Source of the DNA: Agrococcus sp. Marseille-P2731
GTDB taxonomy: Bacteria; Actinomycetota; Actinomycetes; Actinomycetales; Microbacteriaceae
Length of the DNA stretch: 64,000 nucleotides
Assembly: GCF_900117395.1 (NCBI RefSeq)
Contig: NZ_FPEG01000001.1
Coordinates: 248,001-312,000, forward strand
Direction: 5' to 3'
Part shown: positions 58,196-59,988 of the stretch, in pieces
Numbering within the stretch: position 1 is the stretch's first letter
How the letters are laid out: every line of letters starts with the position of its first letter
Notes under the pieces: generated by a model
Database searches by the model: none
Seen by the model: the letters and a program-made list of their open reading frames with translations, nothing else
What the model was told of the DNA's origin: nothing
Translations under genes and position numbers: made by a program

Positions 58196-59988
58196 GCGGA
58201 CCCCAGCACGACCCGAGCCTCTACCGCGAGCGCGAGCAGGTGCCGTTCCGGCGCGCGCTGCTGTCGGTGAGCGACAAGTCCGGCATCGTCGAGCTCGGCA
58301 CGGCGCTCGCCGCGGCCGGCGTCGAGCTGGTCTCGACCGGTTCGACGGCGAAGATGCTGGCAGATGCGGGGCTGGCGGTCACCGAGGTCGCCTCGGTGAC
58401 GGGGTTCCAGGAGGCGCTGGACGGCCGCGTGAAGACCCTGCACCCGGCGATCCACGCCGGCCTGCTTGCCGACCTGCGGCTCGAGCACCACGAGGCGCAG
58501 CTCGCTGACCTCGGCATCGCGCCGTTCGAGCTCGTCGTCGTCAACCTCTACCCCTTCGTCGAGACGGTGCGCTCCGGCGCCGCCGATGCCGACGTGGTCG
58601 AGCAGATCGACATCGGCGGCCCGGCCATGGTGCGCGCTGCGGCCAAGAACCACGCGAACGTGGCGATCGTCACCGATCCGCGCGTCTACCCCCTGATCGA
58701 GCGGGCTGCGGCGACGGGACTCTCGCTCATGCAGCGGCGTGCGCTCGCGCGCGACGCCTTCGCGCACACCGCCGGCTACGACCGCGCCGTCGCGCGCTGG
58801 TTCGCGGGCGAGCCCGTCGACGAGGTGTCGGCTGCGGCCGCCGCCGCCACGCCGACCTCGCCGGTCGAGGAGCGCGCCGCCGCCCCCGCCTCGCCGGTCG
58901 AGGAGCGCGCCGCCGCCTCCGCCTCGACGGTCGAGGAGCGCGCCGCCGCAGGCGGCACGCGTCACGAGACCACCGCACCCGCCGCTCCCGAGCCCGCCGC
59001 CGCATCCGCCGTGCCCGACACCTCGAGCGCCACGGGCCTGCTGCGCGCCGTCGGCGCCGCGACCCTCGTGCAGGGCCTGCGCTACGGCGAGAACAGCCAC
59101 CAGCAGGCGGGGATCTTCGGTCTGCCGGGCGGCAGGGGGATCACGCAGGCCGAGCTCCTGCACGGCAAGCCCATGTCGTTCAACAACTACGTCGACGCCG
59201 ACGCGGCCCTGCGCGCCGCCTTCGACTTCACGGAGCCCGGGGTCGCGATCATCAAGCACGCGAACCCCTGCGGCATCGCGATCGCGGCACCGGGTGCCGA
59301 CGATGCGATCGCCTCGGCGCACCAGCGCGCGCACGCCTGCGACCCGGTGTCGGCCTTCGGCGGGGTCATCGCCGCGAACCGCGTCGTCACTCGCGCCATG
59401 GCGGAGTCGGTGAAGGAGATCTTCACCGAGGTCGTCGTCGCGCCCGACTTCGAGCCCGAGGCGCTCGAGCTGCTGACGGCCAAGAAGAGCATCCGCCTGC
59501 TGCGCCTGCCGGAGGGCTACGCGCGCGAGGCCAGCGAGCTGCGCCAGGTCTCCGGCGGCGTGCTCGTGCAGCAGCCCGACACCTTCGACGGCTTCTCGTC
59601 GCACACGTGGCGCCGCGTCTCGGGCTCGCACGTGTCGGATGCGGTGCTCACCGACCTCGAGTTCGCGTGGCGGGCGGTGCGGTCGGTCAAGTCGAACGCG
59701 ATCCTGCTCGCCTCCGGCGGGGCATCGGTCGGCGTGGGCATGGGCCAGGTCAACCGCGTCGACTCGTGCGGCCTCGCCGTGGCGCGCGCAGGCGACCGGG
59801 CGGCCGGCTCCGTGGCGGCGTCGGATGCGTTCTTCCCCTTCGCCGACGGCCTGCAGGTGCTGCTCGACGCGGGTGTGCAGGCGGTCGTGCAGCCGGGCGG
59901 GTCGGTGCGCGACGAGGAGGTCATCGCGGCCGCGAACGCCGCGGGCGTCACGATGTACTTCACCGGAGAGCGCCACTTCGCGCACTGA
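58192..59988 (+). CDS. purH: Bifunctional AICAR formyltransferase/IMP cyclohydrolase with repeat-derived insertion
   Basis: This 598-residue enzyme catalyses the last two steps to IMP. The N-terminal cyclohydrolase domain ([35 protein letters not shown]) runs to ~210. The AICAR transformylase domain begins with [13 protein letters not shown] (~292) and has [11 protein letters not shown] and [14 protein letters not shown] [12 protein letters not shown]. Between them is a ~70-residue Ala-rich insertion with three [13 protein letters not shown] units (223-260) encoded by the GGTCGAGGAGCGCG repeat. Typical PurH is ~520-535 residues, so the extra length matches the insertion. Coupled to purN. Confidence 0.95.
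58858..58971. repeat. Three in-frame 33-bp copies of the GGTCGAGGAGCGCG repeat inside purH
   Basis: Units start at 58858, 58891 and 58924 (TCGCCGGTCGAGGAGCGCGC and variants). The last one continues into GCAGGCGGCACGCGTCACGAGACC, the same end as the intergenic arrays. The period of 33 keeps the reading frame. Confidence 0.88.

Follow-up and report, generated by a model that had tools for sequence, protein, structure and literature searches.

The purH gene of Agrococcus sp. Marseille-P2731 carries, in the linker between its two enzyme domains, an insert that shares its identity with a genomic palindromic element and is translated in frame. It lies in the window, i.e., the whole stretch of 64,000 nucleotides that was analyzed. 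The insert is very probably a copy of the REP-like palindrome of the genus that arrived in this lineage, had its head duplicated afterward, and was tolerated in frame. purH is one of several genes with interdomain linkers or loops that are filled likewise. Coordinates are collected in Table 1.

Table 1. Location of the purH array, of related arrays, and of repeats inside genes
Feature	Position	Strand	Basis or remark
purH, IMP cyclohydrolase/AICAR formyltransferase, 598 aa, GTG start	58192-59988	+	ORF and Pfam
In-frame element array, PurH interdomain linker, ∼residues 225-260	58863-58971	+	Period 33 bp; two truncated units followed by one complete element
Head of unit 1, read VEER	58863-58876	+	Exact GGTCGAGGAGCGCG
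Head of unit 2, read VEER	58896-58909	+	Exact GGTCGAGGAGCGCG
Complete palindromic element: head GGTCGAGGAGCGCG (read VEER), hairpin CCGCCGCAGGCGGC, tail GCGTCACGAGACC (58959-58971)	58929-58971	+	Both ends and pairing stem
Array, sister subfamily GGTCGAGGAGGCCGCG..GCTGCCGTCACGAGACC, period 43 bp	10941-11117	+	Head GGTCGAGGAGGCCG, 2 mismatches from GGTCGAGGAGCGCG; 43-bp period over 10941-11109
Array, variant GGTTGAGG, period 40 bp, tail ACGAAACC	37251-37331	+	40-bp period over 37224-37325
Array of three exact heads with a period of 39 bp, tail to tail with the preceding GGTTGAGG array	37340-37460	-	Exact heads; 39-bp period over 37353-37468
In-gene clusters, this genome: PurH, TauE/SafE permease, OleBC-like hydrolase-ligase fusion (2 sites), CydDC (2 sites), TreZ-like amylase, Lhr helicase			Pfam
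In-gene clusters, congener G004: CydDC (2 sites), Lhr, FAD amine-oxidase-family protein, NERD/UvrD helicase			Pfam
Tandem repeats in the OleBC-like slot of G021 and G014	L294:1907-2114, L301:2787-3072 (zero-based)

The PurH array and the element within it

PurH contains the MGS-like domain PF02142 and the AICARFT/IMPCHase domain PF01808, i.e., both domains of the bienzyme. The initial annotation had described three repeat copies in the linker. Three exact heads starting at the positions given in Table 1 were indeed found, all read as VEER, and the periods claimed for purH and for the other arrays of the window were confirmed throughout. The units translate to 11, 11, and 14 residues. Units 1 and 2 end within the hairpin and lack the 3′ stem arm; the array, 109 bp or ∼36 residues of PurH in total, therefore comprises two truncated heads followed by a complete element. 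It falls inside a region (residues 213 to 285) that showed a pLDDT below 50 in the AlphaFold2 model, is flanked by two well-predicted domains, and is predicted to be disordered. The purH repeat had also been called the same sequence as the arrays at 10.9 and 37.3 kb. This applies to the minus strand at 37.37 to 37.46 kb, where the match is exact, but not to the 10.9-kb array, which represents a sister subfamily (GGTCGAGGAGGCCG), nor to the plus strand at 37.25 kb, which reads GGTTGAGG.

Covariance model R1 included the purH copy, which scored 67.4 bits there, a value inflated by construction. A model rebuilt without it, on the remaining 22 copies, yielded 66.6 bits for the purH element (E value of 4.9e-14 over 106 kb). 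R1, with the purH copy, underlies the genus and family distributions, the match list of G004, and the 400-kb sampling of a sister subfamily reported below. The window contained 39 head matches with up to two mismatches compared to a mean of 7.95 and a maximum of 17 in 100 shuffles. Across its own genome, the exact head was found 89 times and the exact tail 47 times, with no match for either reversed pattern.

Positions 1 to 393990 of contig C3 form an apparent inverted duplicate with zero spacer, centered at 196995/196996; the window (C3:81991-145990) is located in the mirrored arm. At the center, 6996/6996 compared bases were identical, and the head, tail, and purH matches were mirrored. This duplicate is probably an assembly artifact and fits the stated contamination of 7.69%. 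Since 10 heads and 4 tails are mirrored in this way, ∼79 heads and ∼43 tails are independent. At least four exact heads (L111, L128 on the minus strand, L131, and L143 at 3336) are likely ordinary coding matches.

Complete copies of the element are 37 to 45 bp long, and 23 distinct ones were aligned. In the stem alignment, 99.6% of the cells were paired, 14 cells were changed on both sides, and the covariation score was 0.184 compared to 0.052 in shuffles; each of these three values was matched by 0/500 shuffles. The other two of the five covariation measures, both cruder, were within the range of the shuffles (pairs with double change, 49/500; further pair types, 293/500), and three single copies folded no better than shuffled sequences (z of -0.12 to -1.16). 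The inner hairpin covaries between copies. The element ends in 4-bp terminal inverted repeats (GGTC..GACC), with a compensatory GGTT/AACC in 2 of the 23 copies. Among 159 matches, the bases 5′ of GGTC were conserved (C, G, C/T, mixed), the 3′ side displayed no conservation, and the end carried no unpaired GTAG or CGTC tag, the CGTC of the tail being internal. The comparison for target duplication consisted of the 3′ flank profile, as the species are too distant for a base-exact empty site.

Arrays elsewhere often share the layout seen in purH, in which only the final unit has the ACGAGACC tail. The sister subfamily GGTCGAGGAGGCCGCG..GCTGCCGTCACGAGACC faces copies of the element in inverted orientation at L120, L128, L135, and L137, an arrangement that resembles paired REPs. 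Two GC-rich, hairpin-like inverted repeats, which by eye resemble the terminators of adjacent genes, flank the 43-bp array (window 10884-11160). Dense tandem repeats of GGCCAGCAG-rich units, on one strand or the other, are present at 3831-4316 and 33712-33823 of the window and perhaps encode a low-complexity YGQQ-type stretch. No Rfam family matched anywhere in the window.

Distribution of the element and PurH linkers of relatives

R1 detected the element in 22 of 24 genus genomes, with between 3 and 154 matches per genome. At the family level, 33 of the 199 genomes sampled were positive, representing 21 of 85 genera (E values up to 1e-4). The copy numbers per genome are rough, as they derive from ∼150 scored candidates per genome in the genus and 32 in the family. 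The Y1 transposase (PF01797), the sole transposase family searched, was found in 0/24 genus genomes and in 0/29 other element-bearing family genomes; a control search was positive in 5 of 14 named genomes. Mobilization by a RAYT is thus unsupported. For the sister subfamily GGTCGAGTAG, 100 kb each of G010, G001, G014, and G016 were sampled. Only G010 was positive, with two full-length copies that each showed one departure from head or tail, and R1 gave three weak matches over the 400 kb; abundance of this subfamily in the species whose slots it occupies is unsupported by this sampling. Among the best-matching open-licence papers listed, no report of such an element was noticed for Microbacteriaceae or other Actinobacteria.

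PurH was identified in 23 of the 24 genus genomes, with a contiguous linker in 21. The linker of the investigated species comprises 77 aa, and the 20 others are Ala/Pro-rich and 21 to 100 aa long (median, 52). Outside the genus, linkers of 2 to 67 aa with a median of 12 were observed (80 named loci, the best of at least 595 confirmed); the best named PurH relatives among the matches listed were Microbacteriaceae. The initial annotation had considered the enzyme to be "thereby" 65 to 70 residues longer than normal. The figure is apt in comparison to other genera (77 aa versus a median of 12); the cause is not, given that congeners without the element already reach 21 to 100 aa and that the array adds only ∼36 residues. 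The long linker is therefore mainly a trait of the genus.

Insertion-free versions of PurH, which the initial annotation had suggested looking for among relatives, are the rule: all 20 other contiguous linkers of the genus lack the element. Using the model without the purH copy, the next best score was 19.8 bits (25 purH loci in 23 genus genomes), and the element thus occurs at purH in this genome alone. In a tree of the two PurH domains, the species was placed beside G006, with weak support (80/91), and close to G017, G002, G001, and G015, all of which lack the element at purH. Given such neighbors, either the copy was acquired in the lineage of this species or several losses took place. To call the insert direct evidence of a moving repeat, as the initial annotation did, is, however, too strong. 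Presence or absence between species can reflect gain or loss and is silent on the route, which has to be deduced, and searches for a Y1-type transposase were negative in the 24 and 29 genomes. One genome per species was sampled, and the number of units in purH is known from a single assembly.

An Ala/Pro/Glu-rich linker that expanded on its own could have come to resemble the repeat by accident. The congener linkers are of low complexity and very unequal length, as such convergence would suggest, and the motifs GGTCGAG (8 linkers) and GGTCGAC (5 more) occur in 13 of the 20, all in phase 2, where they form Val-Glu or Val-Asp codons; 7 linkers contain neither. The third purH unit, however, is a complete 43-bp element with both ends and a pairing stem, and its 66.6 bits stand against at most 19.8 at the other purH loci of the genus. 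We therefore rejected convergence, which is highly improbable in light of the linker comparison and the covariance model. The repeat in purH is, as originally proposed, the genomic one, complete and in frame.

Two purH loci of the genus showed assembly peculiarities. In G003, whose genome is a single contig, purH is split at the linker; its N half continues in frame to join the end of an HNH protein, and its C half is found at a distance of ∼540 kb, closely preceded by a single N (L144:3974-5203; L145 near 8164). This could be either a misassembly or a real rearrangement. In G018, two contig ends (L107 and L094) lie inside the purH linker, which may break assemblies.

Filled and empty slots in other genes and their reading frame

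The initial annotation had proposed a genome search for further in-frame copies, and such copies were found. A census by codon model and reading covered this genome (G000) and the congener G004. It yielded 13 in-gene clusters out of 129, 8/41 in this genome and 5/88 in G004 (Table 1); the remaining 116 failed to qualify as in-gene. Set against the general coding density of bacteria, the element appears to be depleted in genes. In this genome, exact-head sites were used, the mirrored arm was counted once, and coding-like heads were dropped by requiring one more base; in G004, 150 of the 154 matches were used. Sites that fell short of the automatic threshold were included after reading or orthologue alignment: the OleBC linker and TreZ in G000, and CydDC site 2 and Lhr in G004. 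L199 of G004 passed the automatic test but was excluded, its position being 5′ of the probable start of a tauE-like gene. The names TreZ, OleBC, CydDC, and Lhr are those we presume from Pfam matches and the usual domain order.

Seven slots (PurH, tauE, Lhr, and two sites each of CydDC and the OleBC-like fusion) were compared with orthologues, and for each an element-free version exists in relatives. CydDC site 1 (11 rows) was filled in G000, G002, and G004; short in G005, G006, G010, G011, and G016; and longer without recognized ends in G001, G017, and G021. CydDC site 2 was filled in G000, G004, G006, and G017 and looked decayed (LAEE..TRLEA or VRLEA) in G010, G011, and G016. The Lhr loop (15 rows) displayed an antisense copy in G000, G004, and G023, a relic in G006, and a decayed-looking sequence in G019; it was motif-free with 54 to 61 aa in eight rows and longer in G001 and G003. 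OleBC-like site 2 (18 rows) contained VEERA copies in G000, G006, and G015 and other inserts in G001, G002, G014, and G021 and was short in the remaining rows (G003, G005, G008, G009, G010, G011, G016, G017, G018, G020, and G023). The OleBC-like slot harbored a CCCTTCGACA-like repeat (RRAPAQGAED) in G021 and a TTGAGGAGCGAGCG-like array (PLPDERASAH) in G014; the 100-kb sample of G014 contained no exact match of the latter. Lhr rows with missing anchors (G007, G008, G014, and G018) were dropped. Undelimited rows were left out for CydDC site 2 (G001, G002, G005, G017, and G021) and OleBC site 1 (G005), and PurH rows G012 and G022 were left out of the frame comparison for the same reason.

In the aligned slots of PurH, CydDC, and the OleBC-like fusion, 26/26 forward heads were in phase 2 and read VEER, not every row being an independent event. 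The four other forward copies (TauE, TreZ, FAD-oxidase, and NERD-helicase) also read VEER. For five of the six frames, most of the 23 aligned copies are free of stop codons, which by themselves therefore do not account for this bias. For the purH copy, the VEER frame (14 residues) looks by eye less basic and less hydrophobic than the other frames. Antisense copies use two open antisense frames, one in Lhr and OleBC site 1 of G002 and the other in OleBC site 1 of G000 and G023. In the sister subfamily GGTCGAGTAG..TATCGAGACC, the frame equivalent to VEER contains a TAG; in G001, this subfamily is found in phase 0 in the two OleBC slots, and in G010, G011, and G016 it is antisense in OleBC site 1. 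Spacings between neighboring heads were divisible by three in 13/13 cases inside genes (15/15 before L199 was excluded) compared to 36/79 elsewhere.

Part of the frame bias could stem from the route of arrival, as the congener linkers carry GGTCGAG or GGTCGAC in the VEER phase. A serious alternative to transposition is that the element was copied during replication or repair, by a template switch between native Val-Glu or Val-Asp codons and an element elsewhere. The VEER frame would then be automatic, and later homogenization would amount to gene conversion. We regard such templated copying as possible, if somewhat unlikely. It would be in line with the lack of PF01797 in the 24 genus and 29 other element-bearing genomes and with the native motifs in 13 of 20 other linkers. 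The tauE slot of G004, which is empty and carries GGTCGACGAA in the VEER phase, and the occupation of one slot by different element subfamilies in different species also point this way. On the other hand, the short versions of CydDC site 1 and of the Lhr loop have no Val-Glu-Glu at the slot, the Lhr copies are antisense, and the transposase search covered PF01797 alone.

It is also conceivable that the in-gene copies are kept for a function, e.g., as a regulatory mRNA hairpin or a flexible spacer, and not merely tolerated. The same slots are repeatedly filled, by different repeats in different species, and the copy-poor genomes G001 (11 matches) and G015 (18 matches) retain copies in the OleBC-like gene. 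However, the 3′ stem arm is missing from the first two purH units, many orthologues have empty slots, and relics decay, which makes a function improbable.

We thus favor arrival followed by toleration. A copy of the element would have reached the PurH linker in the lineage of this species, by transposition or by templated copying at short homologies, and the array would then have grown by tandem duplication of the head through slippage or unequal recombination. Survival of the copy can be attributed to a linker that is predicted to be disordered and was already long and variable, to the mild peptide encoded in the VEERA(A)..TRHET frame, and to duplications in multiples of three. A linker that accommodates an in-frame hydrophilic peptide would have allowed the copy to be kept, with an effect on the enzyme that was neutral or close to it. 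Selection may have caused the frame bias, other insertions in genes presumably having been purged. We are evenly divided on a broader reading, in which the CydDC, OleBC-like, Lhr, and PurH slots would be standing landing slots that are refilled in frame by different palindromic families across species. A tiny mobile palindrome would then generate new protein sequence in conserved actinobacterial enzymes, with the frame of the mildest peptide being chosen.

Relation to known repeats and significance

The closest known counterparts are Rickettsia palindromic elements (RPEs) and intragenic REPs. RPEs, as characterized in sections of PMC10969869, are palindromic insertions of ∼150 bp found in frame in many unrelated protein-coding genes. 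The element is likewise found in frame in unrelated protein-coding genes (13 clusters in two genomes), but it is set apart from the RPE description by its length of 37 to 45 bp, its GC richness, its location mostly outside genes, and its frequent head-to-tail arrays.

REPs tagged with GTAG or CGTC are described in parts of PMC3733652 as short stem-loops that are mostly intergenic, often oppositely paired, and in some cases clustered inside genes. The same excerpts report CGTC REPs without a dedicated transposase and different REPs at about the same site in recB of two Xanthomonas species; they mention untagged REP-like families for M. tuberculosis, and the paper does not use the word Actinobacteria. 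The element is also a short stem-loop palindrome of high copy number located mostly outside genes. In contrast to tagged REPs, it lacks both GTAG and CGTC as a tag at its end, the genomes searched yielded no Y1 transposase, its forward copies use one frame, and several slots are common across the genus. With neither tag nor Y1 transposase, it was classed neither as an RPE nor as a tagged REP. MITEs, which portions of PMC10969869 introduce as small nonautonomous repeats, can also give rise to in-frame fusions. The element shares with them terminal inverted repeats (GGTC/GACC), which are only 4 bp long. Coxiella MITEs and protein evolution have reportedly been treated in PMC5896051 as well.

In-frame capture of palindromes is known for Rickettsia and other REP-rich species, as far as the consulted sections of PMC10969869 and PMC3733652 extend. 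Here, it is found in several conserved genes of a high-GC genus that its PurH relatives mark as actinobacterial, and one and the same slot can be empty, filled, or decayed depending on the related species. This slot series constitutes natural material on how repeats move without a known transposase, why a single frame prevails, and how often mobile DNA is turned into protein.
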